Positions 5,012 through 22,872 of a stretch of 33,314 nt of DNA are shown here, piece after piece (within the stretch, counting starts at the first letter, position 1; the number at the start of each line of letters is the position of its first letter). This stretch comes from Chloroflexota bacterium (GTDB lineage: Bacteria; Chloroflexota; UBA5177), in assembly GCA_025966365.1 (NCBI GenBank), contig JAICWV010000022.1, positions 1 through 33,314 on the forward strand, read 5' to 3'. Position numbers and translations under genes: made by a program. The notes below the pieces were generated by a model that ran no database searches, had not been told where the DNA came from, and saw only the letters and a list, made by a program, of their open reading frames with translations.

Positions 5012-5821
5012 TCACAGATTGCTGACCAGGGCTCCCTCTGAGGGCGCCTCCTCATTCTCGATAAAGGCGCTGCGAATCCGCTGCACGTAGCGGCCGAACT
5101 CGGGCGTGTTCATCACCGGCAGGTCTCGGGGCCGCGGCAGCTCGACATCCACGATGTCGACCAGCCGGCCGGGCCGCGGGCAAAACACCAGGCAACGGTC
5201 AGCCAGGAACACCGCCTCCGGAATGGAGTGGGTAATGAACACCACCGTCTTCCGGGAGTCGCGCCAGATCCGCAGCAGCTCGACATTCATCTGCTCGCGC
5301 GTCATGGCATCCAGCGCTCCAAACGGCTCATCCATGAGGAGGATGGCCGGGTCGTGGACCAGCGCGCGGACGATGGCGGCTCGCTGCTGCATGCCACCTG
5401 ACAGTTCAAAGGGATACTTGTCGGCGAAGCCTCCCAGCCCCACCAGGTCGATCAGCTGATGGGCGCGATTGGCGTAGACCTTGCGTTCCCGGTGCTGGAC
5501 CTGCACCGGAAGCATGGTGTTCTGGAAGACGGTGCGCCAGGGAAGCAGCACCGGCGACTGGAAGACGATGCCAACGTCGCGCCGCGGCCCCTTTACCGGC
5601 GTGCCCTGGAGCAGAATCTCCCCGCTGCTGGGCGTCAGCAGTCCGGCCAGCATGTTGAGCAGGGTACTCTTCCCGCAGCCGCTGGGGCCGACAACGGTGA
5701 TGAACTCACCGTCCTCCATGTTGACGGAGACGTTCTGCAGAGCGACCACGTCCCCACCGCGCTTGGTGCGATATGTCTTGGAGACGTTCCGCAGCTCGAT
5801 CATGTCGCTCGGAGCCGTCAT
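5012..5821 (-). CDS. ABC transporter ATP-binding protein (SsuB/TauB/NrtD type)
   Basis: This is the cytoplasmic ATPase of the three-gene importer, 269 residues. It shows Walker A GPSGCGKST (45-53), the Q-loop in FQSPVLLPWRTV (Gln88), the signature LSGGMQQR (140-147), Walker B ILLMDEPFGALD (160-171) and the H-loop THS (His198). FQSPVLLPWRTV is characteristic of the nitrate/sulfonate/taurine/pyrimidine-precursor subgroup. The open frame continues upstream to 6115, but that stretch is antisense-like arginine-rich sequence inside the permease gene. The ATG at 5821 shares a base with the permease stop (TAATG), indicating coupled translation. The specificity is set by the binding protein encoded at 6687-7766 and is unknown; a heterocycle or ureide is plausible from context. 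Confidence 0.93.
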   Translation of the reverse strand: MTAPSDMIELRNVSKTYRTKRGGDVVALQNVSVNMEDGEFITVVGPSGCGKSTLLNMLAGLLTPSSGEILLQGTPVKGPRRDVGIVFQSPVLLPWRTVFQNTMLPVQVQHRERKVYANRAHQLIDLVGLGGFADKYPFELSGGMQQRAAIVRALVHDPAILLMDEPFGALDAMTREQMNVELLRIWRDSRKTVVFITHSIPEAVFLADRCLVFCPRPGRLVDIVDVELPRPRDLPVMNTPEFGRYVQRIRSAFIENEEAPSEGALVSNL

Positions 5822-6684
5822 TATGGCCCCTCGACGATGTCGTCCATCTGTTTCCAGAAGACGACCTTGCGGGCGACCAGTTTCACGATCTGGCTCATGA
5901 CAAACCCCATGACGGAGAGGATGAGAAGGGCCGCGAACATGCCGGGCGTGTTGACCAGGGCGTTCATCTCCGAGATGTAATAGCCCAGCCCTTCTTGCGC
6001 GGCCACGAACTCGCCCACGATGACGCCGACCACGGAGAGAACGATCGCGACCTCCAGTCCGGCAAAGACCATGGGAAGCGCGTTGCGAATCTTGACCATG
6101 TAGAACGTCTGCCACCCCGATGCGGTCAGGGAACGCATCAGCCGAAGCTGGTCCGAGTCAGTGGAGCGCAGTCCCACGATCACATTGACCAGGAGCGGGA
6201 AGAAGGACACCGTGGCCGCGATGATGACCTTCGATGTCAGGCCAACGCCAAACCAGACCACCAGGAGCGGGGCGATCGCAACCTTGGGAACCGCGTTCAG
6301 CGCGATCACGTACGGGTAGATCATCCGCTCCGCCACCCGATACTGGGCGATGAGGAAGCCCAGGGCGATCCCGACCGCCGATCCAGTCGCGTACCCGACC
6401 ACGATTTCTCGCGCGGTAACGATGGTGTGGTGGACCAGGACGCCGCTACTGATGCCGTCCCTCAGCGCGTCCCAGACGTGACCAGGCGTCGGCACGAGGT
6501 AGTTGGGCACGTTGAAGATGGAAATGGCCAGCTGCCACACAGCGATTCCCACCACCAGGGCGATGGGCGTGTACAGCCAGGTCAGGATGCGGCCCGGGGC
6601 CGGATAGCCCCGGGACCGCGCCACCGGTAGGACGTGTGGATCCAGCGCCTGCTGGGAGCCTTCTCCCCTCGTGCCGACGGCCAC
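5821..6684 (-). CDS. ABC transporter permease (SsuC/TauC/NrtB type)
   Basis: This is the membrane subunit of the same importer, 287 residues with about six membrane helices (for example ILTWLYTPIALVVGIAVWQL near the N terminus). The binding-protein-dependent transport (EAA) loop is LMRSLTASGWQTFYMVKIRNALPMVFAGLEVAI, followed by GVIVGEFVAAQEGLGYYI, the standard signature of the SsuC/TauC/RibX group. The start is GTG at 6684 with an AAAGG-type site upstream, only 2 bp after the stop of the binding-protein gene. Its stop overlaps the ATPase start. The gene order is binding protein, permease, ATPase. Confidence 0.92.
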   Translation of the reverse strand: MAVGTRGEGSQQALDPHVLPVARSRGYPAPGRILTWLYTPIALVVGIAVWQLAISIFNVPNYLVPTPGHVWDALRDGISSGVLVHHTIVTAREIVVGYATGSAVGIALGFLIAQYRVAERMIYPYVIALNAVPKVAIAPLLVVWFGVGLTSKVIIAATVSFFPLLVNVIVGLRSTDSDQLRLMRSLTASGWQTFYMVKIRNALPMVFAGLEVAIVLSVVGVIVGEFVAAQEGLGYYISEMNALVNTPGMFAALLILSVMGFVMSQIVKLVARKVVFWKQMDDIVEGP

Positions 6685-6686
6685 CT

Positions 6687-7766
6687 CTATTTACCTTTCG
6701 CCTGTTTCTGGATCTTCTTGACGTTGAACTTGTCGATCTGCTTGCTCAGCTGATTGGTAAGGACCGTCTTCAGGTCGGCGCTCTTGGTGATGGTTCCGAG
6801 CTGCAAATCCTCGCTCTGCACCTTCTGATAGAGGCTAACCGGAATGTACCCCCACTTCTTGTGCTGCTGCTTGATGAGCGTCATGTTCTTCAGGCGCGCC
6901 ATCATGATCTGCTTGTTATGGGTCCTGGTGTAGAGGTTCCCCACCTCCGGGTACTGCTGGAGGTAGAAGCCGATGGCCTTATTGGGGTTGGCGAGCGCAT
7001 ACACCGTGCCCTCCATGACCGCGCGAGAGAACTTCGCCACGATGTCGGGATGGGCCTGCAGGTACGAGGTCTGCACCAGGATCAGGTCACCTGGGAGCTT
7101 GGTCACCGCGGGTTTGGGCAGGAACCGGATGCCGGCGCCCAGCACCTTGAAAATCGCGAACTGCGTATCGGTGGTCACCATGGCGTCAATCTGGTGAGTG
7201 AGCAGGGCATTCACCGCCGGACCGCCGTTGCCGACGACCACGATCTTGGCATCGCTCTTGTAATCGATGCCCTTCTCGGCCAGGGCGGCCTGTGCTGTCG
7301 GGAAGGACCCGCTGGTCAACGACGAGACGCCCACGTTCTTGCCGCGCAGCTGCGAGACCGACTTGATCTTGCTGTTCTTGAGCACGCCGACCGAGTAAAT
7401 GGAATGGGTCAGGATGGTTGCCACGCCGCGCAGGTCCTCACCGGCTGCCAGACCGTTGAGGAGATTTTCCGGCGAGCTAATGGCAAACTGAGCGTTGCCG
7501 GCCGCCAGCTGCTTCAGAGCGGCGCCACCCCCCGTGTTGGGCTGGAAGGCAACATTCAAACCGTTCTTGGCAAAGTACCCGGCCCCCTTCGGGACGTAAG
7601 CGAACGTCTGCCCCTGATCGGGGGGATTGACGGCGAGCGCGAAGGTCACGTCGGTCAGCTTGCTCGGCGCCGCGCTGGCCGAGTAGCCCGACGTGGCGGT
7701 GACCGCGATCATGACCGCGGCTACCCCCAGTAGTAGCATGATGTGCCGAATGTGTTTGTGAGCCAC
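6687..7766 (-). CDS. ABC transporter substrate-binding protein, NMT1/THI5-like (SsuA/TauA/ThiY type)
   Basis: This is a 359-residue extracytoplasmic binding protein and the first gene of the importer operon. It has an N-terminal signal peptide (about 1-33: basic MAHKHIRH, a hydrophobic core, then GYSASAAP) with no lipobox cysteine. In a monoderm this would leave the protein free or held by the permease, which is unusual because most such proteins are lipoproteins there. The NMT1-like fold is recognisable from KGAGYFAKNGLNV, the GGGAALKQLAAGNAQFAI segment and DAMVTTDTQFAIF. The C terminus is lysine-rich. The start is GTG 7766 with AAGGAG eight bases upstream. Relatives bind sulfonates, nitrate, pyrimidine precursors or riboflavin; the ligand here is unknown. 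It is divergent from the M20 gene at 7892. Confidence 0.9.
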   Translation of the reverse strand: MAHKHIRHIMLLLGVAAVMIAVTATSGYSASAAPSKLTDVTFALAVNPPDQGQTFAYVPKGAGYFAKNGLNVAFQPNTGGGAALKQLAAGNAQFAISSPENLLNGLAAGEDLRGVATILTHSIYSVGVLKNSKIKSVSQLRGKNVGVSSLTSGSFPTAQAALAEKGIDYKSDAKIVVVGNGGPAVNALLTHQIDAMVTTDTQFAIFKVLGAGIRFLPKPAVTKLPGDLILVQTSYLQAHPDIVAKFSRAVMEGTVYALANPNKAIGFYLQQYPEVGNLYTRTHNKQIMMARLKNMTLIKQQHKKWGYIPVSLYQKVQSEDLQLGTITKSADLKTVLTNQLSKQIDKFNVKKIQKQAKGK

Positions 7767-7891
7767 GGAATCCTCTCCTTCAGCCTAAATGCGATTGCGT
7801 CAACCAGGACAACGAATCCTGCCGCTGGCGCCTCCTTCTTTCAGCAGTTATGCGTCACTCCCCGTCCGCGCCCAGGATGGAGCAGGGTGTG

Positions 7892-9121
7892 ATGAATACA
7901 GTACCGGAGATGCGGGCAGCATTGGAAGCTCGGCTGCCCGAGATGCTCGAACTGCTGGAAACGTTGGTGCGGACGCCCAGCCATGCCGTGCAGCCGGAAG
8001 GTGTCGAGCGTGTCCGTGCGGCGGTCGCCGTCGAGTTGATGGACGCAGGCTTTAGCGTCGAGGCGGTGGGCCTCCCCATGCCCGCGGAGGAGGATGCGTG
8101 GCTGGAAGAGCTGATGCTCCCGGGTGGCAGGTATGGTCCGATCGGTCCCGCGCTGCTGGCGCGGCGGCCGGGCAGCGGACGGGGACGAGGATTGCTGGTG
8201 GGCGACCTCGATACATCCTACGGTCCGGGCGCCTACGCGCGCTTCCCGTACCGGATAGAAGGGAACCGCGCCCTGGGCCCCGGCATCGCCGACATGAAGG
8301 GCGGGCTCGTGGTTCTCACCGCCGCGCTGCGCCTCCTGCATGACCTCGATCTCGCCACGCCCGCGGAGACCTCCGTGGTTCTCTGTCCCGACGAGCAGGC
8401 CGGGAGCCTCCGCTCGCGCTCGCTGGTGCGGGACGAAGCCCGCGGGGCCGACTGGTGCCTGTGTGTGGAGTGCGCCCGCAACGGCGGCAGCCTGATGGGT
8501 GCCCGCGGGCACATCGGCGTTGCCCGCCTGGACGTTCACGGCAAGGAAACGCACGCGGGGAGCAACCATGCTGGCGGCGTTAGCGCCGTGGAAGCGCTGG
8601 CCCGCAAGATTCCGCGCATCAATGCCGTCACCGATCCCGGCCGCGGTGTCTTCGTCACCGTGGCCCAGGTGGGAGGTGGCCGGCGGAGGAGCGTCGTGCC
8701 GGGGGACGCCCACGCCATCATCGACGTGCGGACGCCCGATGCGGCGACCTGGACGTCCGTCGAGGCGGAAATGGCCGCGATCGCGGCCGCCGAGGACCTG
8801 CCGGGAACGACGAGCCGGCTGCGCATCAGGGCGCATCGTCCCGGTGTCGGCTGGACAGCGGGAACCGACCGGCTCATCGACATCGCGCGCGATGCCGGCG
8901 AGGAGGCGGATGTTCATTTCGACGTAATCCGCTCTCCCGCGGCGGGGAGCTCGGCTTTCGCCGGGGAAGCCGGCGTGCCGGTGCTCGACGGCATGGGACC
9001 GATCGGCGGCGACCTCATGACAGATCACGAGTACATCGAGATCCCGTCTCTGATCGACCGCTCCTTGCTTCTGGCCCTGGTGCTTCATCATCTTGCCACC
9101 GACGAATCGTTCTCCCGGTGA
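7892..9121 (+). CDS. M20 family peptidase-like protein related to carboxypeptidase G2, with altered zinc ligands
   Basis: This is a 409-residue M20-fold protein that resembles carboxypeptidase G2 along its length (ARFPYRIEGNRALGPGIADMKGG; HGKETHAGSNHAGGVSAVEAL lid segment). M20 enzymes hydrolyse amide or carbamoyl bonds using two zinc ions. Here three of five ligands are changed: the first His is Asp105 (VGDLDTSY instead of xHxDT), the second Glu of the EE pair is Gln169 (PDEQAGS), and the C-terminal His is missing (GGDLMTDHEYIEI). Asp107, bridging Asp134, the general base Glu168 and Glu193 remain. The frame opens at 7850; ATG 7892 is preferred because GGAGCAGGG precedes it. It is divergent from the importer, suggesting action on the imported compound, but it could be a binding or regulatory pseudoenzyme. 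Confidence 0.85.
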   Translation: MNTVPEMRAALEARLPEMLELLETLVRTPSHAVQPEGVERVRAAVAVELMDAGFSVEAVGLPMPAEEDAWLEELMLPGGRYGPIGPALLARRPGSGRGRGLLVGDLDTSYGPGAYARFPYRIEGNRALGPGIADMKGGLVVLTAALRLLHDLDLATPAETSVVLCPDEQAGSLRSRSLVRDEARGADWCLCVECARNGGSLMGARGHIGVARLDVHGKETHAGSNHAGGVSAVEALARKIPRINAVTDPGRGVFVTVAQVGGGRRRSVVPGDAHAIIDVRTPDAATWTSVEAEMAAIAAAEDLPGTTSRLRIRAHRPGVGWTAGTDRLIDIARDAGEEADVHFDVIRSPAAGSSAFAGEAGVPVLDGMGPIGGDLMTDHEYIEIPSLIDRSLLLALVLHHLATDESFSR

Positions 9122-9129
9122 GTACAGAT

Positions 9130-9155
9130 GGAGCCGGACCACAGGGCCCGGCTCC
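9130..9155. terminator. Bidirectional hairpin between convergent genes
   Basis: GGAGCCGG (9130-9137) pairs with CCGGCTCC (9148-9155) around a 10-nt loop that can add two more pairs. It lies in the 45-bp gap between the M20 gene and the convergent amidohydrolase. No T-run follows. Confidence 0.55.
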
Positions 9156-9166
9156 CGTACCAGTCG

Positions 9167-10621
9167 TCAGACTGCCTGCGGCACGCGCTCCTTGGCCGCG
9201 ACCGGCTCGAAAGCCAGGCCAGGCGAGAGCAGGTTGGTGATAGCGGTGGGCACCTGGGGCACGCCCGCGATATAGCGTCCGTACCCGGGCTTCCCCGTCA
9301 CTTTCCCGTTTTCGGCAATCACCTGGCCACGCAGGAAGGTCATCTCGGGCCCGCCGGTGAGCGTCCAACCGTGATACGGCGTCCAGCCGCACTTGCTGTA
9401 TGCTTCCTCGTCCCGCGGGTGCACTTCTTTGTTCAGATCCACCACCACCAGGTCGGCATCCGCGCCCACCTGGATCGCGCCCTTCTTCGGAAACTGCCCG
9501 ATGACGCGGGCCGGGTTCTCACAGAGCAGCTTGATTGCCCGCTGGAACGACAGCTTGCCGTTGTGGACGTCGGTCAAGATGACCGACAGCATGTCCTGGT
9601 ACTGCGGACTGCCGAAGGGGCCGGTCCATGGGTCCACGTACATCTTTTCCAGATCCTGCAGGGTGTGGGGCGCGTGATCGGAGTCGATGGTGTCGATGGT
9701 GCCGTCATTCAGCGACTCCCAGATGATGGCCATCCGCTCGTCGTCCTCGGTGATGCATCCGCCGGGCAGCGCGCGAGCGCCCTGCTCCTGCATGTCCTTG
9801 CTGGTCAAGTGGTAGTACTTCAGGTCCACCGCGCAGGTAAACCGCTGCCCCTCTTCCTTGGCGCGCTTGATCAGCTTCAGGCTCTCGCCGGCATGTGTGT
9901 GGAGCAGCTGCAGGCGGACCCCTGTCTCCTTCTGGAGACGCAGCAGCACGGCCACCGCCGAGCTCCAGACGATGTCATTGGTATACATCCTGGCGAAGGT
10001 GTTGATATCGCGCGGAGCACCCTCGGCCACGGCCTGGGCGGAGAGCATGTCCATCAGCGGCTGGTTGTAGGGATGCACCAGGCAGGGCAGGCCGGTCTTG
10101 GCGATCTGATCGAAGGCTGCGTAGATCTTCTCGGTCTCACCCATGGCGAGACGCGGATCGTGGGGGTAGCCGCCACTCACCTGGAAGATCTTGTAGCCGG
10201 TGGCGCCCGCCTCGGCCAGGCGCGGAATCTCCTCCAGTTTGGTGCCGGAGACGAAGTGGCCGAAGTCGATGATGCAGGTGTCGTCCGCGATCCGGCGCTT
10301 GTACTCATAGGTCTCGACGTCATCGGTCGGCGGCTCGACGTTCGGCATGTCCACGTAGGTGGTGATGCCACCGACCGCCGCGGCCTGCGATGAGGTCAAA
10401 TAGTCTTCCTTATATTCGTATCCGGGCACGCGCGTGTGCGCGTGCGGGTCCACCAGGCCAGGGATGATGTGCTTGCCGCCGGCATCGACCTCCCGGTCGG
10501 CCCGGGTCTCGTCGTCGCGCGACACCAGACCGGAAATCTGCTCTCCGGTAATCAGGATGTCGGCCTCAATCGGTCCGGCGGGGGTATGGACGGTCGCGTT
10601 TCGGATGCGGGTGTCTGCCAT
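9167..10621 (-). CDS. Cyclic amidohydrolase, dihydroorotase/allantoinase/dihydropyrimidinase family
   Basis: This is a 484-residue metal-dependent cyclic amidohydrolase that would open a ring amide or ureide. The metal site is complete: His60 and His62 (DPHAHTR), Lys144 (GYKIF, the carbamylated bridge), His183 (LVHPYN), a His in LLHTHAG (241/243) and Asp315 (DSDHAPHT). The segment HTRVPGYEYKED is closer to dihydroorotase (HxR-PG-E-KED), where the Arg binds the substrate carboxylate, than to the allantoinase or hydantoinase versions. The typical composite domain GAIQVGADADLVVVDL is near the C terminus. It is the last gene of the operon, 3 bp after the 2Fe-2S subunit gene. No pyr genes are nearby, so a catabolic role is likelier than pyrimidine synthesis. 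The substrate is unknown, perhaps a carboxylated ring. Confidence 0.9.
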   Translation of the reverse strand: MADTRIRNATVHTPAGPIEADILITGEQISGLVSRDDETRADREVDAGGKHIIPGLVDPHAHTRVPGYEYKEDYLTSSQAAAVGGITTYVDMPNVEPPTDDVETYEYKRRIADDTCIIDFGHFVSGTKLEEIPRLAEAGATGYKIFQVSGGYPHDPRLAMGETEKIYAAFDQIAKTGLPCLVHPYNQPLMDMLSAQAVAEGAPRDINTFARMYTNDIVWSSAVAVLLRLQKETGVRLQLLHTHAGESLKLIKRAKEEGQRFTCAVDLKYYHLTSKDMQEQGARALPGGCITEDDERMAIIWESLNDGTIDTIDSDHAPHTLQDLEKMYVDPWTGPFGSPQYQDMLSVILTDVHNGKLSFQRAIKLLCENPARVIGQFPKKGAIQVGADADLVVVDLNKEVHPRDEEAYSKCGWTPYHGWTLTGGPEMTFLRGQVIAENGKVTGKPGYGRYIAGVPQVPTAITNLLSPGLAFEPVAAKERVPQAV

Positions 10622-10624
10622 CGG

Positions 10625-11155
10625 TCATGCCTCCTCGTGGATACTCTCGTGTTCTGCAGTCGTTGCCCTGGTTACTTGTGCAATCGCCCGGGCGATTGCC
10701 GGGTAGGTGCCGCAGCGGCAGATATTGCCACTCAGCCACTCCGCCATCTGGTCATAGGTCGGCGTCGGGTTCTCGTCGAGGAGGGCGCGCGTGGCCATCA
10801 GCTGCCCGGAGGTGCAGAAGCCACACTGCGCCGCCACCTGATCGACAAACGCCTCCTGAATGGGGTCCAGCCGTCCGTCAACTGCCAGACCTTCCACGGT
10901 AGTGACGGCGCGTCCGCCGGCCTCAAAGGCGAGGTAATTGCAGGCGCTTACCGGCCGCCCGTCGACCAGGACGGTGCAGGCGCCGCAGACCTCGGAGTTG
11001 CAGGAGCGCTTGGACCCGGTCAAGCCAAGCCTGAGCCGGAGAAAATCCAGCAGAACCTCCTCCACGGGAACCTCTCCGCTCCACTCCTGCCCGTTGACAC
11101 TGATAGACACCGGCAGGGTCTGTACCGTCGCCACCGGCTCGAGGGTTTCAGTCAC
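10625..11155 (-). CDS. Molybdenum hydroxylase small subunit, [2Fe-2S] (CoxS/XdhC-type)
   Basis: This 176-residue electron-transfer subunit carries both iron-sulfur clusters of a xanthine-dehydrogenase-family enzyme. The plant-ferredoxin-like N-terminal cluster uses Cys52, Cys57, Cys60 and Cys72 (CNSEVCGAC...C). The helical C-terminal domain uses Cys111, Cys114, Cys146 and Cys148 (QCGFCTSGQ and NICRCGTY). It passes electrons from the molybdenum site to FAD. The start is GTG 11155, overlapping the FAD-subunit gene by 8 bp. The tail after the conserved AIARAIA helix (ending AEHESIHEEA) is unremarkable, but the DNA coding for AIARAIA is a 20-bp palindrome. Confidence 0.95.
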   Translation of the reverse strand: MTETLEPVATVQTLPVSISVNGQEWSGEVPVEEVLLDFLRLRLGLTGSKRSCNSEVCGACTVLVDGRPVSACNYLAFEAGGRAVTTVEGLAVDGRLDPIQEAFVDQVAAQCGFCTSGQLMATRALLDENPTPTYDQMAEWLSGNICRCGTYPAIARAIAQVTRATTAEHESIHEEA

Positions 11156-12014
11156 CCATTCCTCCCATCATGGATGTGCGGAGCGCTCGCTCCAGCGCCA
11201 CCACCGTGATATCCAGCTTGTAGGCGGCAGAGCCCAGAAGATCGTCCACCGGCATGAGTACCTCCTCCAGCAACTCCCTGGCGCCGCGGATCGCCTCGAC
11301 GGCATCCTCAACGGTCAGGCCACGAATCCGGCCCTCCAGGTCGGGCAGGCGCACTGCCCGCGGCCCGACACAGCCCACCGCCATCCGCACCTCGTTGACG
11401 ACGTTCCCCCCACTCCGCGCCGCCACGGCCGCGTTGAGGGTGGGCCGGAAGAAGCGCTCGATGCGCTGATAAGCGACGCCCCACCCGGGAGGGAGCGGCT
11501 CCACGCGCACCCGCGCCAGAATCTCTCCGGGTTCCAGCGCCGTCTCGTACATGCCCAGCAGAAAGTCGTCCAGCGGCATGACGCGGCTGCCGCGCGTCGA
11601 TCCCAACTCCACTTCGGCATCCAGCACCAGCAATGGTGTGGCCGGGTCCGCGTGCGGATCGGCAAAACAGAGATTGCCTCCCAGGGTCCCCTGGTTGCGC
11701 ACGCGGATGTTCCCGACGTGGGATTCCGCCTCGGCCAGGAGCGGATAATGCTTCCGAATTTCTCCATCCCGCTCCAGATCCCAATGGGTCACGGCCGCCC
11801 CGATGGAGATGCCCCCGTTCTCGCGGCGGATTCCGTGAAGCTCGGGGATGTGCTTGATATCGATCAGGTACTCGGGCTGGAGCAGGCCCTGACGCATGAG
11901 GAGCAACAGCTCGGCGCCGCCTGCGTATATCGCAGCCGCGTCGTCGTGACGCTCCAATTCCTCTCCGGCCTCGGCAACAGTCCCGGGGCGAAGAAGGCGG
12001 AAGGGCTTAAGCAT
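11148..12014 (-). CDS. Molybdenum hydroxylase medium subunit, FAD-binding (CoxM-type)
   Basis: This 288-residue FAD subunit accepts electrons from the [2Fe-2S] subunit. FAD-binding signatures are AGGAELLLLM (31-40; AGGTDL in most relatives) and VRNQGTLGGNLCFADPHAD (105-123). The C-terminal CO-dehydrogenase flavoprotein domain includes VRMAVGCVGPRAVRLPDLE. It starts at ATG 12014, overlapping the CoxG stop by 8 bp, and overlaps the small-subunit gene by 8 bp. The order large subunit, CoxG, medium, small is rearranged relative to the coxMSL order of aerobic CO dehydrogenase, but all parts are present. Confidence 0.94.
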   Translation of the reverse strand: MLKPFRLLRPGTVAEAGEELERHDDAAAIYAGGAELLLLMRQGLLQPEYLIDIKHIPELHGIRRENGGISIGAAVTHWDLERDGEIRKHYPLLAEAESHVGNIRVRNQGTLGGNLCFADPHADPATPLLVLDAEVELGSTRGSRVMPLDDFLLGMYETALEPGEILARVRVEPLPPGWGVAYQRIERFFRPTLNAAVAARSGGNVVNEVRMAVGCVGPRAVRLPDLEGRIRGLTVEDAVEAIRGARELLEEVLMPVDDLLGSAAYKLDITVVALERALRTSMMGGMGD

Positions 12015-12477
12015 GGCTCCCCTCCAGCTCTTCCTCCGTCAGCGCCGCTCTGAGGTTTTCGGCGAAGCCCTCGACCACCTCGCGCGCTTTGCGCTTGACC
12101 ACGAACTGGCCCAGGGTCGCCAGGACACCGAGCACAACGACGTCGGCGGCCGCTTCCAGCCGCGTCCCGGTGTCATCCCCGTGAAGACGAACTTCGAGGG
12201 TGACGCGCTGGGATGTCCGCAGCTTCTTGTCTTCCCCGGTACAGAGCAGACGAACCAGGGAGAGTGGCGCGCGCTCCTCGACGGTAACATCCATATCAAA
12301 GGCCACTTTGTAGGGACCGACCTTGTCCTCGAACCGGGCCACGTAGCTCCGTTCCGGCTCGACCTCGCGGACGCTCACGCAGCCGGGCAGACAGGCAGCC
12401 ACCGGCTGGATCTGCCAGAGAAACGCCCACACTTCCTCGGTGGAGGCCGGTACGTGTATCTGCTCCTCGAATCGCAT
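12007..12477 (-). CDS. CoxG-like SRPBCC domain protein (carbon monoxide dehydrogenase subunit G family)
   Basis: This is a 156-residue single-domain SRPBCC (START-like) protein. It begins FEEQIHVPASTEEVWAFLWQIQPVAACLPGCVSV, the classic CoxG opening (V-A-x-x-x-PG), followed by the VGPYKVAFDMDVTVEE and TRLEAAADVVVLGVLATLG strands. CoxG proteins accompany molybdenum hydroxylases and are implicated in membrane attachment or quinone delivery in CO dehydrogenase; in other hydroxylase operons their exact job is open. It lacks the long C-terminal membrane-anchor extension of some CoxG proteins. It sits 9 bp after the large subunit and overlaps the FAD subunit, so it clearly belongs to the complex. 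Confidence 0.88.
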   Translation of the reverse strand: MRFEEQIHVPASTEEVWAFLWQIQPVAACLPGCVSVREVEPERSYVARFEDKVGPYKVAFDMDVTVEERAPLSLVRLLCTGEDKKLRTSQRVTLEVRLHGDDTGTRLEAAADVVVLGVLATLGQFVVKRKAREVVEGFAENLRAALTEEELEGSHA

Positions 12478-12486
12478 CTGGCTCCC

Positions 12487-14862
12487 CTAACCCTGCTGCC
12501 GCACCGCGCTCAGGACTTTCTCCGGAGTGAATGGCACGGAGGTGACCTGAACGCCGATGGCATCGTAAATGGCGTTGGCAACGGCCGGAATTGTGGCCGG
12601 TAGCGACGTCTGCGACATCCCCTTGGATCCGAAGGGACCGGGACCGTCCCCGTTTTCGATGAGCATGGCGTCGAACGCCTCGGGAATATCGCGCATGAGC
12701 GGCAGCCGGTACTGGAAGGGATCGGCGTTGAGCAGCTGCTCCTCCTCATAGACCAAGTCCTCGAAGAGCGAGAGCCCGATTCCCATCACGGCTCCTCCCT
12801 CCGCCTGGGTTCGGGCCGCGCCGTAATGGAGCGCCTTGCCCACATCCGCCACCACCGCCAGCTGGAGCAGGCGCGTCTCGCCGGTGTCGAGATCGACCTC
12901 GACCTCCGCTGCTGCCGCTCCCGGCGCCCAGTGATCGAGACCACCGAAGGCCCGGTCGGGCGAAGGCGCGTAGCTGTAGGCGCCAAGCCCTTTGAGTGAG
13001 ACCACGCCTTCGAAGGAGGGCGCGGCGGCAAAGGCCTGGACGATTCCGGCGTACGGATAGCGCTCGCTCCCGCGCGAGACGGCGCCGTCTGCCACCGTCC
13101 ACTCCTGTGCGTCGCCGCCGTGGATCTGAGAAGCGCCATCTGCCAGCTCGCGCTTCAGGCTCTCACAGGCTTTGAGGACGGCGTTGCCCATTTGAACGGT
13201 GGTGCGCTGGGCGGAGGAGCCCTCGAAGTGCAGGTCGTGGCCGGTATCCGGCTCGCCGACCCGGACCATCTCCTGTGGAATGCCGAGCGAGCGAGCGGCC
13301 ACGGTGCTGATCATGTTGTAGGTGCCGCCGCCCAGATCCGGGGCGGCGTGCGAGATCTTGACGGTTCCGTCGCCGTACATGGTGGCCATGGCATAGGCCC
13401 GGCCGGCGCCCTGCGCGCCGTGGCGCAGCGAGAGGGCGATGCCCCGTCCCCGTGCGACCCGGCGAGCCCCGATCTCCATCGGACCTTCCCCTCCGGCGTT
13501 GCCGTCCCAGCCGATCGACTCCGCGGCCATCAGCAGCATGCGGTCCAGGTCAGCATCCATGGGCGGGGTATCGGCCGGATATTCCACCCCCTGCACCTTC
13601 CAGGAGTCGGCGATATACCGGCCACGCAGCGGCACGTTTTGCAGGCGAAGCTGAAGCGGCGAGATGTTGAGCTCCCGTGCAATCCGGTCCATGAGCGCTT
13701 CGACGCCGAAGGTCGTCTGCGATTTGCCGGTTCCCCGGAAGGAGGCCGCAGGCACCTTGTTGGTGTAGGCGGTCTGCGCGCGGACGCGGAAGTTGGGTAT
13801 GGCATAGGCGCCCCAGGAGGAGATGCACATATTGCGGGTCACCAAACGGGCGCCGGTGAAATAGGCGCCGGTATCCACTTCGAGCCGCACGTCCAGCGCC
13901 GTCAGCTTGCCGTCGTTGGTAACCCCGGCACGCGCCCGATAGAGTGCGGCGTGCCGGGCAGTCACCCGGAAGCTCTGCTCGGCGGTGGCGAAGAGCCGTA
14001 CCGGGCGTCCGATGCGGCGCGACATCGCCATGGCGCCCATGATGGCGGGCGTGATTTTCTTGGACCCGAAGGCGCCGCCCAGTGGGGGAACACGCACGCG
14101 AACGCGATCGGGATCGATGCCGAAGATCTCGGCGATCTGATCGGCCGGGCTGAAGGGCTTGTTGGTGGCAAACCAGAGATCCACCCCTTCGTCGGTGAAG
14201 TTGACCAGGCAGCCCCCGGAGGGCTCCATGGGGTGATGGAAGACGTTTCCGGTGTAATAGGCCCCATCAATAATGCGGTCGGCTGCAGCCAGACCCGCCT
14301 CCACGTCGCCCCACTCGAAGCTGTCCTCGTGCGCCAGGTTGGTGCCAAGGTCCTCATGAATCAGTGGGGCGCCCGGGGCCATGGCCTCGGCGAAGGAGAA
14401 GACGGTGGGAAGTATCTCCCAGTCAATGTCCACCAGCTCGGCCGCGTGCTGCGCCGTGCGCAGGTCCTCCGCCACCACGATCCCAAGAAAGTCGCCGTCA
14501 AACCGCGCTTTGTCGGTGGTGACGAAATGCTGGTCCGCGGTCTCGCCGTGCTCGCGCGTGTGTCCGCGATACTCGCCGACCCGAACGCCGGGATCGAGCC
14601 CGTCCAGGGTATCTCGATGCAGAACGCCCAGGACACCGGGGAGGGCCTCGGCGCGGGAGGAATCGATGGAGACCACGCGAGCGTGCGAGTAGGGGCTCTT
14701 GATCGGCCAGGCGTAGACGGTGCCGGGAAGATCCGGAATATCGTCGAGGTAGTGCGCCTGCCCGGTCACTTTTTCCAGCAGATCGATGCGAGGTCCGTAC
14801 TCCCAGGCCTCGACCGGGCGCGTGGGGGCTGCTTTGCGGCGGGGACGGTCGGTGATCACCAT
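12487..14862 (-). CDS. Molybdenum hydroxylase large subunit (xanthine dehydrogenase family), catalytic Glu replaced by Gln
   Basis: This 791-residue molybdopterin-binding subunit hydroxylates a substrate carbon, usually on a heterocycle or aldehyde. The aldehyde-oxidase hammerhead domain is at about 25-155 (DLLEKVTGQAHYLDD). Cofactor motifs are GGAFGSK (262-268), AASFRGTGKSQ (372-382), HGAQGAG (481-487), PDLGGGTYNM (508-517) and EGSSAQRTTVQMGN (547-560). In the C-terminal motif where the family has GxKGxGE, this protein reads GSKGMSQ, so the essential active-site Glu is Gln751 (codon 12610-12612). It lacks the AYxCSFR loop of form I CO dehydrogenase. The open frame reaches 15054, but ATG 14862 follows the deacetylase stop by 7 bp and starts the conserved protein; no strong ribosome site is visible there. 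Confidence 0.92.
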   Translation of the reverse strand: MVITDRPRRKAAPTRPVEAWEYGPRIDLLEKVTGQAHYLDDIPDLPGTVYAWPIKSPYSHARVVSIDSSRAEALPGVLGVLHRDTLDGLDPGVRVGEYRGHTREHGETADQHFVTTDKARFDGDFLGIVVAEDLRTAQHAAELVDIDWEILPTVFSFAEAMAPGAPLIHEDLGTNLAHEDSFEWGDVEAGLAAADRIIDGAYYTGNVFHHPMEPSGGCLVNFTDEGVDLWFATNKPFSPADQIAEIFGIDPDRVRVRVPPLGGAFGSKKITPAIMGAMAMSRRIGRPVRLFATAEQSFRVTARHAALYRARAGVTNDGKLTALDVRLEVDTGAYFTGARLVTRNMCISSWGAYAIPNFRVRAQTAYTNKVPAASFRGTGKSQTTFGVEALMDRIARELNISPLQLRLQNVPLRGRYIADSWKVQGVEYPADTPPMDADLDRMLLMAAESIGWDGNAGGEGPMEIGARRVARGRGIALSLRHGAQGAGRAYAMATMYGDGTVKISHAAPDLGGGTYNMISTVAARSLGIPQEMVRVGEPDTGHDLHFEGSSAQRTTVQMGNAVLKACESLKRELADGASQIHGGDAQEWTVADGAVSRGSERYPYAGIVQAFAAAPSFEGVVSLKGLGAYSYAPSPDRAFGGLDHWAPGAAAAEVEVDLDTGETRLLQLAVVADVGKALHYGAARTQAEGGAVMGIGLSLFEDLVYEEEQLLNADPFQYRLPLMRDIPEAFDAMLIENGDGPGPFGSKGMSQTSLPATIPAVANAIYDAIGVQVTSVPFTPEKVLSAVRQQG

Positions 14863-14869
14863 GGCCGGA

Positions 14870-15784
14870 CTACACGCAGAGCGCGGCGAGCTCGCCGCAG
14901 GTTGCAAACCACACGCCGGGATGTGCCAGTGCGTGCTGGATGAAGTGCTCCAGCGCCCAGGAGCGGAAGGGACGGCCCGAGACCCGCGGGTGCATGGTGA
15001 TGGAGCAGATCCTGGGCTCGTCGGCCGATTCCTTATAGAGAACGTCAAACTCACAGCGCCAGCTGTTCAGAACGTGCTGGGGGCTGGCGTAGAAGTTCCC
15101 ACCCGCGTGCGTGGTGTAGCTGGAGACGGGCATGAGGTACATGTTGGAGTCGTCCATGCAGGATGGCAGGGCCAGGATGCGCCCGTTCGGGCGCTCGATC
15201 CAGAAGGGGAGGTCGTCGTTGGGGTAGCTGGCGTCCCACTGATAGCCTGCTTCGATCAAGGCATCCAGGGTCGGGCCGGTGGTGGTGTACTGCGGGGAGC
15301 GCCAGCCGCGCGGCCGCTCGCCCGAGACGCGCTCGATGGCGGCGGTGGCCCGATCGACTTCTTCCCGCAAGGCCGCCTCATCCATCTGGTGCATGGGCCA
15401 GTGGGCATAGCTATGGACCGCCAATTCGTGGCCGGCCTCGGGAATGGCGCGGATGACGTCGGGGTACCAGTCGGCGGTCGAGCCGCAGGTCGGGAAGGTC
15501 GCCTTCACCCCGTACTCGCCGAGGATGCGGAGAATCCGCTTCAGCCCGGCCTTGATCTCATACTGCCGCTCCATCTGGTCGACATAGTTGATGGAGCCGT
15601 CGCGGCGCATGGTGGTCTGGTAATTGGGCCTGGCCGCGTCGATATCTCCCTGGGTGTCAAAGGTGAGGAGCACGGCCAGGCGGGTGCGCTGCGGCCAGTT
15701 GTCGAGCAGCCGGGTGGGAGCGGTGGTCCCGAAGGTCTCCTCCCAGGAATGCGGTCCCCAGGTTTCCGAAGCAAGCATGGTCAT
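14870..15784 (-). CDS. Polysaccharide-deacetylase-fold amidohydrolase (PuuE/allantoinase-like)
   Basis: This is a 304-residue NodB-fold (carbohydrate esterase 4-like) protein. Motif 1 is LTFDTQGD (40-47; a family Asp pair with a Gln insert), motif 2 is HSYAHW (124-129), and motif 3 is WRSPQYTT (161-168). A late ITMHPRVSGRP supplies the histidine that completes the site. There is no signal peptide, so it works in the cytoplasm. This rules against cell-wall deacetylation and fits the PuuE group, cytoplasmic NodB-fold hydrolases that act on small amides such as allantoin. The neighbours are a flavin monooxygenase (8 bp upstream) and a molybdenum hydroxylase. It provides a second amide-opening activity besides the amidohydrolase at 9167-10621. 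The substrate is inferred only. Confidence 0.85.
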   Translation of the reverse strand: MTMLASETWGPHSWEETFGTTAPTRLLDNWPQRTRLAVLLTFDTQGDIDAARPNYQTTMRRDGSINYVDQMERQYEIKAGLKRILRILGEYGVKATFPTCGSTADWYPDVIRAIPEAGHELAVHSYAHWPMHQMDEAALREEVDRATAAIERVSGERPRGWRSPQYTTTGPTLDALIEAGYQWDASYPNDDLPFWIERPNGRILALPSCMDDSNMYLMPVSSYTTHAGGNFYASPQHVLNSWRCEFDVLYKESADEPRICSITMHPRVSGRPFRSWALEHFIQHALAHPGVWFATCGELAALCV

Positions 15785-15792
15785 ACCGGCGC

Positions 15793-16791
15793 CTACGACG
15801 CAGCGGCCGAGGCCGGCTCGCCGACGGTCCGGACGCGCGGAAGGACTTCTCGCCCGATCAGCTCCGCTTTCTCCTCGTAGCGATCGAACTGAAGCCGAAG
15901 ATCGAAGATGAAGGTATCGATGCCGCGGTCGGCAAACTTGCCGATCTCACTGGCGACGTCGTCCGGATCGCCGGCCAGGAGCAGGCCCTCCAGATCGTCC
16001 ACGGTCTCGAACCTGCCGGATGGTGGCTTGATCCAGTCCTTGCTGCCTTCCGAGCTGTTCGCCAGCGCATCCACGTCGATCCCGGAGCGGGCGGCCTCGC
16101 GGCTCTCATCAATGCTGACCAGCGGAATGACCCCGGCCTTCAGCGTGATGCCGCGCTCGCGCTCCAGCTTATGGAGATAGGAGAGGCGATCGTCGAGGGT
16201 CGCCATGGGCAAGCGACCGGGAAGCCAGCCGTCACAGGAATCGGCGGCACGGCGCACCGAGCGCCTGCTGGTGCCGCCATACCAGGTCATGGGCGGCACG
16301 GGGGGCTTGGGCGAGATGTTGACGTTCTCGTACTGGAACTTCTGCCCGTGATAGTCGAAGTCCGTCTGCGTCCAGGCCAGCTTGCAGATATCCACTGTTT
16401 CCTCATAGATGGCGGCCCGCTCGTCCACGTCGAAGCCCGCCGCGGCCAGCTCCTTGCGGTTGGACCCCAGGCCGAAGCCGGCGTGGACGCGGCGCTGCCC
16501 GACGTAGCTCAGGCTGGCGAAGTCCTGCGCCACTTTCAACGGCCAGCGAATGGGGATCACGACCGCCGTTCCCAGCTCAATGCGCCTGGTGGCACCAGCC
16601 GCGGCAGCAAGAGCGATAAACGGCTCCACGAAGGTGGTGTTGGTTCCCTCCATGCCGTGCGGCTTCCAGAGGAGATGATCGCGGACCCAGACCGAGTCGA
16701 AGCCCCAGTCCTCAAGCTTCCTCGACATCTCGGTCAGGCGGTCGGGCCGGCACTGCTCGCCGAAGTGGGGTAAAAGCATCCCGAATTTCAT
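15793..16791 (-). CDS. LLM class flavin-dependent oxidoreductase (luciferase-like)
   Basis: This is a 332-residue single-domain TIM-barrel protein of the bacterial luciferase superfamily. It begins MKFGMLLPHFGEQC with KLEDWGFDSVWVRDHLLW, then GTAVVIPIRWPLKVAQDFASL, GFGLGSNRKELAAAGFD and WYGGTSRRSVRRAA, all typical of the group. These enzymes use FMNH2 or F420H2; RutA of the pyrimidine pathway is a relative that opens the uracil ring with oxygen. The cofactor cannot be decided here. ATG 16791 has GGGAG a few bases upstream. It sits 9 bp after mmsA and 8 bp before the deacetylase-fold gene, so it is probably the oxygenase of the pathway. Confidence 0.9.
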   Translation of the reverse strand: MKFGMLLPHFGEQCRPDRLTEMSRKLEDWGFDSVWVRDHLLWKPHGMEGTNTTFVEPFIALAAAAGATRRIELGTAVVIPIRWPLKVAQDFASLSYVGQRRVHAGFGLGSNRKELAAAGFDVDERAAIYEETVDICKLAWTQTDFDYHGQKFQYENVNISPKPPVPPMTWYGGTSRRSVRRAADSCDGWLPGRLPMATLDDRLSYLHKLERERGITLKAGVIPLVSIDESREAARSGIDVDALANSSEGSKDWIKPPSGRFETVDDLEGLLLAGDPDDVASEIGKFADRGIDTFIFDLRLQFDRYEEKAELIGREVLPRVRTVGEPASAAAS

Positions 16792-16800
16792 GGCACTCCC

Positions 16801-18306
16801 TTACCAGTGCACGCCGGTTCCGTCAGCACCGAACCAGCGGCGAATGATGATCTGACGATCGGTGAAGAAATCGACGGCGTCGCGTCCCTGCCCGTGCAGC
16901 GTTCCAAAGAAGGACTGCCTGGCCCCTCCGAAGGGGAAGTAGGCCATGGGGGCAGCGACGCCGATATTGACGCCCACGTTCCCGACGTCAACGCGGGTCT
17001 GGAACTCGCGCGCCCATCCTCCGTTCTCGGTGAAGATGCTGGCAGCGTTGCCGTAGGGGCTGCTCTGGACGAGCCCGATGGCTTCATCCAGGGTTTCTGC
17101 CCGCATAATGCCGAGCACGGGGCCAAAGATTTCGGACTGGGCCAGCGACATGTCTGGCGTCACCCCATCGAACACGGTGGGCTCGACGAAGTAGCCGTCC
17201 GCGTGTCCCTCGGGCTGCAGTTTCCCACCCCCGGCGAGGAGCGTCGCGCCCTCGGCGGCGCCACGTTCGACCGCCTGCAGAATCCGGTCTCGCGCTGCCC
17301 CGGAGATCACCGGCCCCATCGTCACCGACGGGTCCAGGCCATTGCCAACCTTGATCTGGCCGACGGCATCGAGGAGCGCGTCGCGAAGCGCATCGTGCAC
17401 GCCGCCGACGGTTACGATCAGCGAGCCGGCCAGGCAGCGCTGGCCCGCCGAGCCGAAGGCCGAGTTGATGATGTTGGAGACAGACTTGGTCAGGATTGCG
17501 TCCGGCATCACCACCATGATGTTCTTGGCGCCACCCGCGGCCTGCACCCGCTTTCCGGCGGCGCTGGCCCGTGCGTAAATGTGCCGGGCAGTGGGGGTCG
17601 AGCCGACAAACGAGATGCCGCGGATATCGGGATGATCGACCAGCGCGTCGGCAGTGCTGCGGTCGCCGTTGACCAGATTCACGACACCGGGCGGGAAGCC
17701 GGCCTGCTCCAGCAGCTGGAAGGCCAGGTTCTGCGATAGCGGGACCTGCTCCGACGGCTTGACCACAAAGGTGTTCCCGGTGGCGACGGCGTAGGGCAGG
17801 AACCAGAAGGGGACCATCATGGGGAAGTTGAAGGGGGAGATGGCGGCAAAGACACCCAGAGGCCGCCGAACCGCCTCCTCATCGATCCCGCTTCCGGCGC
17901 CGTTTTCCAGTCCGTAGCCCATCATCAGGGTCGGGATCCCGGCGGCAACCTCCACGTTCTCCATCGCCCGCTGCACCGAGCCGTGGGCATCGGCCAGCGT
18001 CTTTCCGTGCTCCATGGTGATGGTGCGAGCCAGGTCGCCGCGATGCCTGATCATCAGGTCGCGGAGACGGAACATGCTCTGCGCCCTCTCCAGCGGCGGC
18101 GTGTGCCGCCAGGCCTCGAAGGCATCCTGGGCGCTCCGAACGGCCGCGTCCACATCGTCCAGCGAGGACACCGGGACGGTGGCGATGGTCTCGCCCGTCG
18201 CCGGGTTCGTCACCGGCAGGGATTCCGACGACTCCAGCGGCTGCCAACCGCCGCCCACATAGTTCGGGAGCACGCGCAGTCCCGGGGTCGTCTCCACATC
18301 GAGCAT
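16801..18306 (-). CDS. mmsA: CoA-acylating methylmalonate/malonate-semialdehyde dehydrogenase
   Basis: This 501-residue aldehyde-dehydrogenase-superfamily enzyme converts (methyl)malonate semialdehyde with CoA and NAD+ to propionyl- or acetyl-CoA and CO2. Features are ISPFNFPMMVPFWFLPYA (157-173), GSTPTARHIY, the catalytic Cys291 in GQRCLAGS and Glu392 in SEIFGPVL. The usual general-base motif ELGGK is replaced by QAAGGAKNIMVVMPDA (255-270), as in known MMSDH proteins that use CoA rather than water. The frame opens at 18351, but ATG 18306 has a perfect GGAAGGAG seven bases upstream. It is the first gene of the eight-gene operon and probably handles the last C3 fragment, as in reductive pyrimidine or beta-alanine degradation. 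Confidence 0.93.
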   Translation of the reverse strand: MLDVETTPGLRVLPNYVGGGWQPLESSESLPVTNPATGETIATVPVSSLDDVDAAVRSAQDAFEAWRHTPPLERAQSMFRLRDLMIRHRGDLARTITMEHGKTLADAHGSVQRAMENVEVAAGIPTLMMGYGLENGAGSGIDEEAVRRPLGVFAAISPFNFPMMVPFWFLPYAVATGNTFVVKPSEQVPLSQNLAFQLLEQAGFPPGVVNLVNGDRSTADALVDHPDIRGISFVGSTPTARHIYARASAAGKRVQAAGGAKNIMVVMPDAILTKSVSNIINSAFGSAGQRCLAGSLIVTVGGVHDALRDALLDAVGQIKVGNGLDPSVTMGPVISGAARDRILQAVERGAAEGATLLAGGGKLQPEGHADGYFVEPTVFDGVTPDMSLAQSEIFGPVLGIMRAETLDEAIGLVQSSPYGNAASIFTENGGWAREFQTRVDVGNVGVNIGVAAPMAYFPFGGARQSFFGTLHGQGRDAVDFFTDRQIIIRRWFGADGTGVHW

Positions 18307-18393
18307 GGAAATGCTCCTTCCGCTCAGGCCGGCACGGGCATCTGCCGCCACCTGGCCCGTCCGCTCGCAACGATGAATACAGTCTAGAACCGC

Positions 18394-18463: not shown

Positions 18464-19780
18464 TCAGGAAGTGGTCTGAGGCTCCCGGCGAGGCTGAGCG
18501 GTGATACTGAGGGCAATGCGGGCGTAGAGCCGCGCGGCGTGGACCAGGTCTTCAACCTTCATGGCGAAGTTCCCGGCGCCGGTGGTGGGGCCCGGGCCAT
18601 ACATGACGCAGGGGATGCCGGCCTCAGCGTAGGAGTTGATGTCCCGCCACATGCTGGTAATCACGGGGCGAGCCATCTCCACCTCGGTCCCGAACTCGGA
18701 GCGGTGGGCAGCGCCGATCGCCTCCACCAGCGGCTCCACGCCCTTCGCTTCCCGGCCGGGCCGGAAAGTGTACAGCTCCAACTCGTAGGGGATGCCGGAC
18801 TGCCGCAACACCTCGTGCAGCTCAGCCTGCACATCGGTCGGGTGTTGCTCCGGGGTGATGCGGACGTCGAGGTAGATCCCGGCTGCCTGGGCCGTCTTCG
18901 AGATCTTGTAAGGCAGGCCGCCGCGCACGGCGCCGATGTTCACCCGTGGTGTGACTGTGCCGCCCGGCCCCTGGTAGCGGTGCCGCGGCTCGTACTCCCC
19001 GGCCCACTCCTCCAGCCGCTGGATGATGTCCGCCGCCAGGACGATGGCGTTGGGACTGCGGTCCCAGACCGACCGGTCCACGAAGGGGTTGTAGATAGGA
19101 GGCTCAGCGCCGAAGACAGTGATCTTGAAGAACATGTTGCCCGCTTCCACCCACCCCAGATGGAAGTCGGTGGCCTCGGCCACGACGGCGACATCGGCGA
19201 CGGCGCCATGGCTGATAGCGTAGCGGGTGCCGAGCTCGCGCGATGCGAATTCGGGTCCCTGGAACTCGTCGATGGGCTCCAGCTCGATCTCGCCACAGGC
19301 GGCGGTCAGCACCAGCTCGCCGGGGAGCGCGCCCAGGGTGTCCTTCATGGCCTTGCAGGCAGCCAGCCAGCAGGCCATCTGCCCCTTGTCGTTGCACAAC
19401 CCGTTGCCGTAGCACATGGCGCCGTCGCGCCAGGCGGTGTGGTAGATGGGATCGTCGGCGTGGACGGTGCTCCAGACCTCGCCCACTGCCACGGAGGTGT
19501 CGAGGTGACTGTTGAAGGCCAGGGACCGGCCGGCGCCGGTGGCGGGCAACCGGCCCACCACGTTGAAGCGCTCGGCAATCAGCCCCACGCGCCGTGGCGC
19601 GAAGCCTTCGCGGTCCATCCAGTCGTAGACGAAGTCCGCGGCCTCCCGCTCGGCCCCGGCGGCGCTGTCGATGCTGCCCAGCTGCACCGCCAGGTCCACC
19701 ACCGCATCCTCGTCGATCGTGGCCAGCACCCGGCTCGCGGCGTCCTCTATGGAGACGTCCCCCGAATGACCCGGAATCAT
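18464..19780 (-). CDS. Divergent M20/M25/M40 family metallohydrolase (ArgE/DapE-like)
   Basis: This is a 438-residue M20-type hydrolase that would cleave an amide, carbamoyl or N-acyl bond. The first metal motif is intact (NSHLDTS, His92 and Asp94), as are Asp131 (NDKG), a Glu at 164 that fits the general base, and Glu202 (VVAEATD). The second Glu of the EE pair is Ile165 (ACGEIELEP), and the C-terminal His region reads AGNFAMKVEDL without a His. The lid segment GAEPPIYNPFVDRSVWDRSPNAI is also unusual. The frame extends to 19822, but those codons lie in an inverted-repeat element, so ATG 19780, 4 bp from the element, is the likely start. No Shine-Dalgarno is visible, and the element may have replaced it. 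The function is probably in the same pathway as mmsA. Confidence 0.82.
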   Translation of the reverse strand: MIPGHSGDVSIEDAASRVLATIDEDAVVDLAVQLGSIDSAAGAEREAADFVYDWMDREGFAPRRVGLIAERFNVVGRLPATGAGRSLAFNSHLDTSVAVGEVWSTVHADDPIYHTAWRDGAMCYGNGLCNDKGQMACWLAACKAMKDTLGALPGELVLTAACGEIELEPIDEFQGPEFASRELGTRYAISHGAVADVAVVAEATDFHLGWVEAGNMFFKITVFGAEPPIYNPFVDRSVWDRSPNAIVLAADIIQRLEEWAGEYEPRHRYQGPGGTVTPRVNIGAVRGGLPYKISKTAQAAGIYLDVRITPEQHPTDVQAELHEVLRQSGIPYELELYTFRPGREAKGVEPLVEAIGAAHRSEFGTEVEMARPVITSMWRDINSYAEAGIPCVMYGPGPTTGAGNFAMKVEDLVHAARLYARIALSITAQPRREPQTTS

Positions 19781-19783
19781 CTT

Positions 19784-19976
19784 GTAGGGGCGATGTGCAA
19801 TCGCCCGCTGCTTTCGGGGCACGAACCGCAGTGGGTCGAACAGGCAGCGTCTGGCCTTGCAACACCCTGGTTCCAGTGGGCACGGCGCCGCACCACGTCA
19901 CGGTTGATTGCCACCCATGGGTGGCATGAACTGAAGCCGGCCGGCGTGCCGGCGGGCGATTGCACATCGCCCCTAC
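19784..19976. mobile_element. 193-bp element with perfect 25-bp terminal inverted repeats (MITE- or REP-like)
   Basis: The arms at 19784-19808 (starting GTAGGGGCGATGTGC) and 19952-19976 are exact reverse complements over 25 bp. Between them is an 18-bp perfect palindrome, TGCCACCCATGGGTGGCA (19909-19926), and a GC-rich dyad around GCCGGCCGGCGTGCCGGC. There is no credible coding frame and no obvious target duplication. It lies immediately upstream of the M20 gene, between it and the cupin. Elements of the GTAGGGGCGA...TCGCCCCTAC type are familiar as dispersed intergenic repeats; whether this one is mobilised by a transposase in trans cannot be seen. Confidence 0.65.
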
Positions 19977-22585: not shown

Positions 22586-22872
22586 AGGAATACACGATCG
22601 CCGCACTGGCCGCGCTCGGTCTAGCTCTGCTGGCGGTCGGAATCGCCGGGCCCTGGCGGGATCGGTCGCTCTGGCTGGGTTTCCTCGTCTTCGCCGCCAT
22701 GACCCTCGCGGCCGATGTCGCGCTGACGGGCGTCGGCGTGTATACCTACGACCGACACTTCAACGCCGGCCTCTACCTCGGTCGCATGCCCCTGGAAGAT
22801 CTTGCCTACGGGCTCGCCCTCTATCTGATCGCGGCGACGGTCTGGACCTGGATCGGCGAGCATGCTGCGTGA
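22582..22872 (+). CDS. Lycopene cyclase domain protein, small subunit 2 (CrtYd/CrtYf-like)
   Basis: This is a 96-residue, three-helix partner of the preceding protein. The conserved part is GVGVYTYDRHFNAGLYLGRMPLEDLAYG (50-77). The P-L-E-(D/E) motif mirrors the PLEE of subunit 1, as expected for the two halves of a pseudo-symmetric cyclase. It starts in an ATGA overlap with subunit 1 and overlaps the elongase gene by 11 bp, so all three are made stoichiometrically. The heterodimer would form the end rings on the carotenoid. Ring type (beta, epsilon or gamma) cannot be predicted. Confidence 0.85.
   Translation: MKEYTIAALAALGLALLAVGIAGPWRDRSLWLGFLVFAAMTLAADVALTGVGVYTYDRHFNAGLYLGRMPLEDLAYGLALYLIAATVWTWIGEHAA

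Follow-up and report, generated by a model that had tools for sequence, protein, structure and literature searches.

Glutamine at the catalytic glutamate position of a molybdenum-cofactor-binding subunit from Chloroflexota, with altered molybdenum-site surroundings

The locus studied here raises the question of what a protein of the xanthine-oxidase family does when glutamine occupies the position of the catalytic glutamate, a textbook-essential residue of this family. The window, a 33,314-nucleotide stretch of DNA from a Chloroflexota bacterium (contig JAICWV010000022.1), contains on its minus strand a gene (12490..14862) for a Mo-cofactor-binding large subunit of 791 amino acids, whose matches to the Pfam families MoCoBD_1, MoCoBD_2, and Ald_Xan_dh_C lie far over the cut-offs. 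The plus-strand letters ctg at 12610..12612 read CAG on the minus strand, and this is codon 751, counted from the ATG at 14862, of a 791-codon frame without stops. In phmmer alignments against solved structures, Gln751, located in the motif GPFGSKGMSQTSLP, stands opposite the glutamate of 4-HBCR (1rm6; GPFGAKEASEGML), D. gigas AOR (1sij; GPFGASGVGELPL), and quinoline oxidoreductase (1t3q; GIKGMGESAM). The matched residue is the Glu of the GxxGxKGxGE motif, the position of the catalytic Glu1261 of bovine xanthine oxidase (XO) and E1266 of mouse AOX3 (mAOX3) (PMC3624778, PMC3864932). The codon and the alignments thus bear out the original prediction that Gln is present where the catalytic Glu is expected. 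A literature search found no natural Glu-to-Gln exchange at the catalytic position of this family in the open-access literature, outside which most subscription journals lie.

The possibility that the Gln is unique to the gene in the window was rejected, as the same residue is found in its clade relatives (here designated clade A) and in a second clade, clade B, described below. Searches of genome contigs recovered relatives with an alignment query and none with a single-protein query. Clade A members come from five Chloroflexota genomes, the named MAGs Dino_bin42, Centralia_MAG_115, and CoA_1_bin.38 among them, and from one groundwater MAG labelled Deltaproteobacteria. Four full-length relatives (47 to 54% identity) from three other Chloroflexota genomes all have Gln, and with members added from named assemblies and whole genomes, the comparison with close homologues proposed along with the original prediction gave Gln in all 13 distinct clade A C-termini. 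Glu was present in 162 of the 181 distinct C-termini surveyed across the family, a sample skewed toward Chloroflexota and relatives of the query. In the tree, clade A has a support of 100/100 and a very long stem (0.97 changes per column), and it is nested inside the Glu-type proteins. The clade is rare and patchy, since only 5 of 400 evenly drawn Chloroflexota genomes have a member. Pairwise dN values are 0.23 to 0.45, against dS values of at least 1.1 that are largely saturated; because dN is well below dS, clade A is, by this sequence-based measure, under purifying selection.

The original prediction also held that the other cofactor motifs were intact. This stands for Arg376 and the Moco loops (GGxFGxK and QxEGG), which are retained in clade A, but not for the surroundings of the Mo site, which are rebuilt at Thr378, Lys380, Gln552, His679, and Gln717. 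When 10 clade A rows were compared with 27 Glu-type rows, Thr was found in all 10 at position 378 (13729..13731, minus strand, as are all codons given here), the bovine Phe914 position, where 24 of the 27 Glu-type rows have Phe or Tyr. Lys380 (13723..13725) is likewise present in 10 of 10 clade A rows and in no Glu-type row listed. His679-Tyr680 (12823..12828) replaces the Asn-Pro of the family (9 of 9 clade A rows for each residue; Asn and Pro each in 24 of the 27 Glu-type rows); further clade A members retain His679, and Tyr680 is sometimes His or Arg. At 12712..12723, clade A has Asp714 and Gln717, where the family mostly has Asn or Ser and Asp, respectively, and the acid thus seems to have shifted by three residues, from 717 to 714. 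Pro544 and Asp546 of the Glu-type rows are Leu and Phe in clade A. At position 234, clade A has Asn, Ala, Asp, Gly, or Ser; the residue is mostly Gln elsewhere, and its mAOX3 equivalent, Q772, contacts the axial oxo group. The equivalents of Gln767 and Glu802 are variable in the clade. Positions 378, 344, and 269 are given presumptive bovine numbers, taken from the bovine sequence and the mAOX3 alignment. Alignment to 3zyv places Gln552 (13207..13209) at the position of mAOX3 S1085, which hydrogen-bonds the catalytic Glu in simulations (PMC3864932). This position is Gln in 10 and Met in 1 of 11 clade A proteins, whereas 153 of the 162 Glu-type proteins have Ser there and none has Gln. The comparison rules out an isolated substitution in an otherwise intact site and suggests that the catalytic Glu was lost together with its neighbours in a coordinated rebuilding. 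An AF2 model of the Mo subunit (pLDDT 90, pTM 0.91) predicts an intact fold, the geometry of the Mo site being taken from homology only. Gln751 in such a rebuilt site is better read as a sign of altered chemistry in a natural variant of a known family than as a product of error or decay.

Membership in the xanthine-oxidase family is supported by the Ald_Xan_dh_C, MoCoBD_1, and MoCoBD_2 domains, by the family fold in the AF2 model, and by the [2Fe-2S] and FAD partner subunits, whereas the catalytic Glu that marks the molybdenum hydroxylase class is Gln751 here. The scores remain below the NCBIfam cut-offs for xanthine dehydrogenase (XdhA, 356 bits against 780; PucD, 339 against 783.65; XdhB, 257 against 849.5) and far below that for 4-HBCR (TIGR03194, 356 against 994.55). 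The family-name annotation "xanthine dehydrogenase family" may mislead on the reaction of these proteins. The AYxCSFR loop of aerobic CO dehydrogenase (CoxL), which carries the Cu-binding Cys, is FRGTGK in the window's protein. Bovine XO, R. capsulatus XDH, and mouse AOX1 and AOX3 are alike in fold, Moco-binding motifs, and the Fe-S and FAD chain, but the window's protein has other residues at each of the positions of bovine Glu1261, Phe914, and Arg880 and of mAOX3 Ser1085. The best solved relative is the 4-HBCR alpha subunit of Thauera aromatica (1rm6; 261 bits, TM score of 0.86 to the model), with which the GPFG.K motif is shared and which shows that a member of the family can be reductive. 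However, 4-HBCR keeps the Glu (KEASEG) and has His at position 378, and its FAD subunit has a [4Fe-4S] insertion, as described in the structure paper cited in PMC10420851, whereas the FAD subunit in the window (11151..12014, minus strand; Pfam FAD_binding_5 and CO_deh_flav_C) has only two Cys in 288 amino acids and no such insertion, and so lacks the cysteines for the extra cluster. A precedent for non-hydroxylating chemistry is MhyADH, the Mo cyclic-alcohol dehydrogenase of Alicycliphilus denitrificans, which is described as an alcohol dehydrogenase and, compared by its description, has the same three-subunit architecture (PMC4052635).

The Mo subunit gene lies within a tightly packed minus-strand gene order. 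From upstream, this order comprises an M20 hydrolase (M20b; 18467..19822), a CoA-acylating enzyme of the methylmalonate-semialdehyde-dehydrogenase (MMSDH) type (16804..18351; TIGR01722, 534 bits against a cut-off of 448.5), an LLM-class flavin oxidoreductase (15796..16791), a PuuE-allantoinase-like hydrolase of the polysaccharide deacetylase family (14873..15784), the Mo subunit, a CoxG/SRPBCC-like protein (12010..12477; Pfam COXG), the FAD subunit, the [2Fe-2S] subunit with both Cys motifs intact (10628..11155; Pfam Fer2 and Fer2_2), and a cyclic amidohydrolase of the hydantoinase/dihydropyrimidinase/allantoinase group (9170..10621). From 18351 down to 9170 the genes overlap or are separated by about 10 bases, with M20b about 115 bases upstream. 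M20b shares 49% identity with 5-nitroanthranilate aminohydrolase, an enzyme of a rare kind that deaminates aromatic compounds by hydrolysis. The best solved relative of the amidohydrolase is L-hydantoinase (1gkr, 247 bits), and it reached no NCBIfam equivalog cut-off among the matches listed. The operon is followed, past a divergent carboxypeptidase-G2-like M20 gene on the plus strand (7853..9121), by an NMT1/SsuA-type ABC importer on the minus strand (5015..7766; ATPase, permease, and binding protein).

FAD-subunit orthologues (51 to 60% identical) and Fe-S-subunit orthologues (59 to 67%) are found near several clade A members; such partners were seen beside part of the related loci. Other members adjoin genes for UbiD decarboxylases, Rieske oxygenases, double-cupin proteins, and LLM enzymes, and the shared theme would be aromatic or heteroaromatic catabolism, with no substrate assigned. 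The neighbours vary between clade A members, and the context therefore does not point to one shared reaction. A uracil or dihydropyrimidine operon, considered on the basis of the hydantoinase-like, M20, and MMSDH-type genes, was dropped, as M20b is closest to 5-nitroanthranilate aminohydrolase and other clade A members have UbiD, Rieske, and double-cupin genes as neighbours. Four XdhC_CoxI matches in other parts of the genome indicate only that Moco sulfuration is possible. Separately, a double-cupin protein weakly similar to gentisate dioxygenase recurs near clade A genes (L038, 10310 to 11401; L040, 14310 to 15428; L045, 3193 to 5487; L050, 3484 to 4659).

The reading that we prefer, tentatively and just short of calling it probable, is that the operon encodes a working three-subunit Mo enzyme for the catabolism of aromatic compounds or N-heterocycles, in which a Gln-Gln pair in a rebuilt site would support hydride transfer without base-assisted hydroxylation. 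To our knowledge, plain hydride transfer, i.e., dehydrogenation or reduction, is a reaction class hardly known for the xanthine-oxidase family. The Glu and its Ser partner would have become Gln751 and Gln552 amid the coordinated changes at Thr378, Lys380, His679, and Gln717. Because clade A retains the Moco-binding motifs together with the Fe-S/FAD chain, a two-electron redox reaction at Mo would be expected. With no carboxylate, and with Gln unable to accept a proton, the usual deprotonation of Mo-OH would be absent; hydride would instead pass to or from the sulfido ligand (Mo=S), the substrate being dehydrogenated or reduced without attack by the Mo-bound oxygen, and Gln751, being uncharged, would form hydrogen bonds with the substrate or with the Mo-oxygen ligand. 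In mouse AOX1, the E1265Q exchange abolished activity and left 60% of the Moco (PMC2671166), which argues that Gln should leave Moco able to bind but should not take over the role of the usual base. A third small lineage, L231 and L232 (G032:C27 and G120:C23), has Leu in place of the catalytic Glu, with Gln at position 552; as a second lineage without the Glu that also has Gln at 552, we count it in favour of this reading. L231 also lacks the usual FRGxG loop. More specifically, and with clear doubt, the clade A lineage may have given up carboxylate-assisted hydroxylation and adopted a Mo site with a Gln-Gln pair and Lys for plain hydride transfer on aromatic or N-heterocyclic rings.

The sequence allows both options raised in the original prediction, a different reaction and another residue serving as base. 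The main rival is an ordinary hydroxylase with another base, a possible but rather unlikely arrangement, in which Asp714, His679, or the substrate would deprotonate Mo-OH or a nearby Lys380 would lower its pKa so far that a base is not required. In the C-terminal domain, Asp714 is the one clade-specific acid that was found; it is kept in clade A while the family Asp717 is lost, and it is a candidate for a relocated base; Lys380 and His679 are kept as well, and the hydantoinase-like amidohydrolase and the M20 hydrolase would suit ring hydroxylation followed by ring opening. However, the comparison of clade A with the Glu-type sequences revealed no clade-specific Glu at the Mo site.

Another alternative, which we consider improbable, is that the chemistry is unchanged and Gln is tolerated, the carboxylate not being rate limiting for this type of substrate and Glu and Gln being nearly interchangeable. 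This would be in keeping with clade B, a second Chloroflexota clade that groups as sister to 4-HBCR, with its Gln lying in the motif KE[AV]GQGPL. The window's own genome carries a 4-HBCR-like Gln-type copy (G000:C95, 6558 to 8813; L003/L201), and the clade was found in 74 of 400 Chloroflexota genomes (E <= 1e-190). Among the 66 clade B orthologues with a readable site, 51 have Gln (48 CAG and 3 CAA codons) and 15 have Glu. In a clade B tree built with the catalytic site masked, the Gln pair of the own family has a Glu protein as its sister, and 49 proteins in a separate block are all Gln, which suggests at least two switches, either two gains of Gln or a single gain plus a reversal. Where read, the RGHG and SSR motifs do not differ between the Glu and Gln orthologues, and such interchange with unchanged neighbouring motifs means that losing the carboxylate does not by itself imply a new chemistry. 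The near invariance of the Glu assumed in the original prediction thus needs qualifying and is not true in Chloroflexota, given the Gln majority in clade B and the Leu lineage. However, clade A never has Glu, its partner Ser is changed too, and the same exchange is inactivating in AOX1 (PMC2671166). Clades A and B share Gln at the catalytic position but are only ~30% identical, and clade B retains Ser at 552 along with RGHG. The two have separate origins, a single clade of all Gln proteins having been rejected (joint A and B clade, p-AU of 1.2e-5). These natural, selected Gln enzymes, together with the Glu/Gln switching in clade B, form a comparative set for the role of this Glu and for asking whether the family goes beyond hydroxylation.

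It is very unlikely that the protein is a catalytically dead or decaying paralogue, retained as a scaffold or en route to loss. A related copy (G056:C111, L041) is indeed broken by stops in frame and has Asn at the Glu site, but in clade A the low dN relative to dS, the invariant new residues, the intact frames, and the conserved Fe-S and FAD partners speak against decay, and the gene in the window, as originally predicted, does not look decayed. A sequencing or assembly error at 12610..12612, named at the outset as what could refute the observation, has a practically negligible probability and is excluded by the orthologues, as independent genomes carry Gln at the same position.

Two further observations concern the groundwater "Deltaproteobacteria" MAG (G400; ~8.3 Mb). 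At its locus L045, two large subunit genes, one of the Glu type and one of the Gln type (6693 to 8981 and 9001 to 11244), are arranged in tandem ahead of single FAD and Fe-S genes, perhaps representing two catalytic subunits on one shared electron chain. The same genome has 63 matches to Mo hydroxylase large subunits (E <= 1e-60), a very large expansion, possibly with split genes among them. Elsewhere in the window, consecutive plus-strand genes at 22862 to 27191 for a UbiA/glycosyltransferase fusion, an amine-oxidase-type flavoprotein, and a phytoene/squalene synthase look like a carotenoid or terpenoid cluster.
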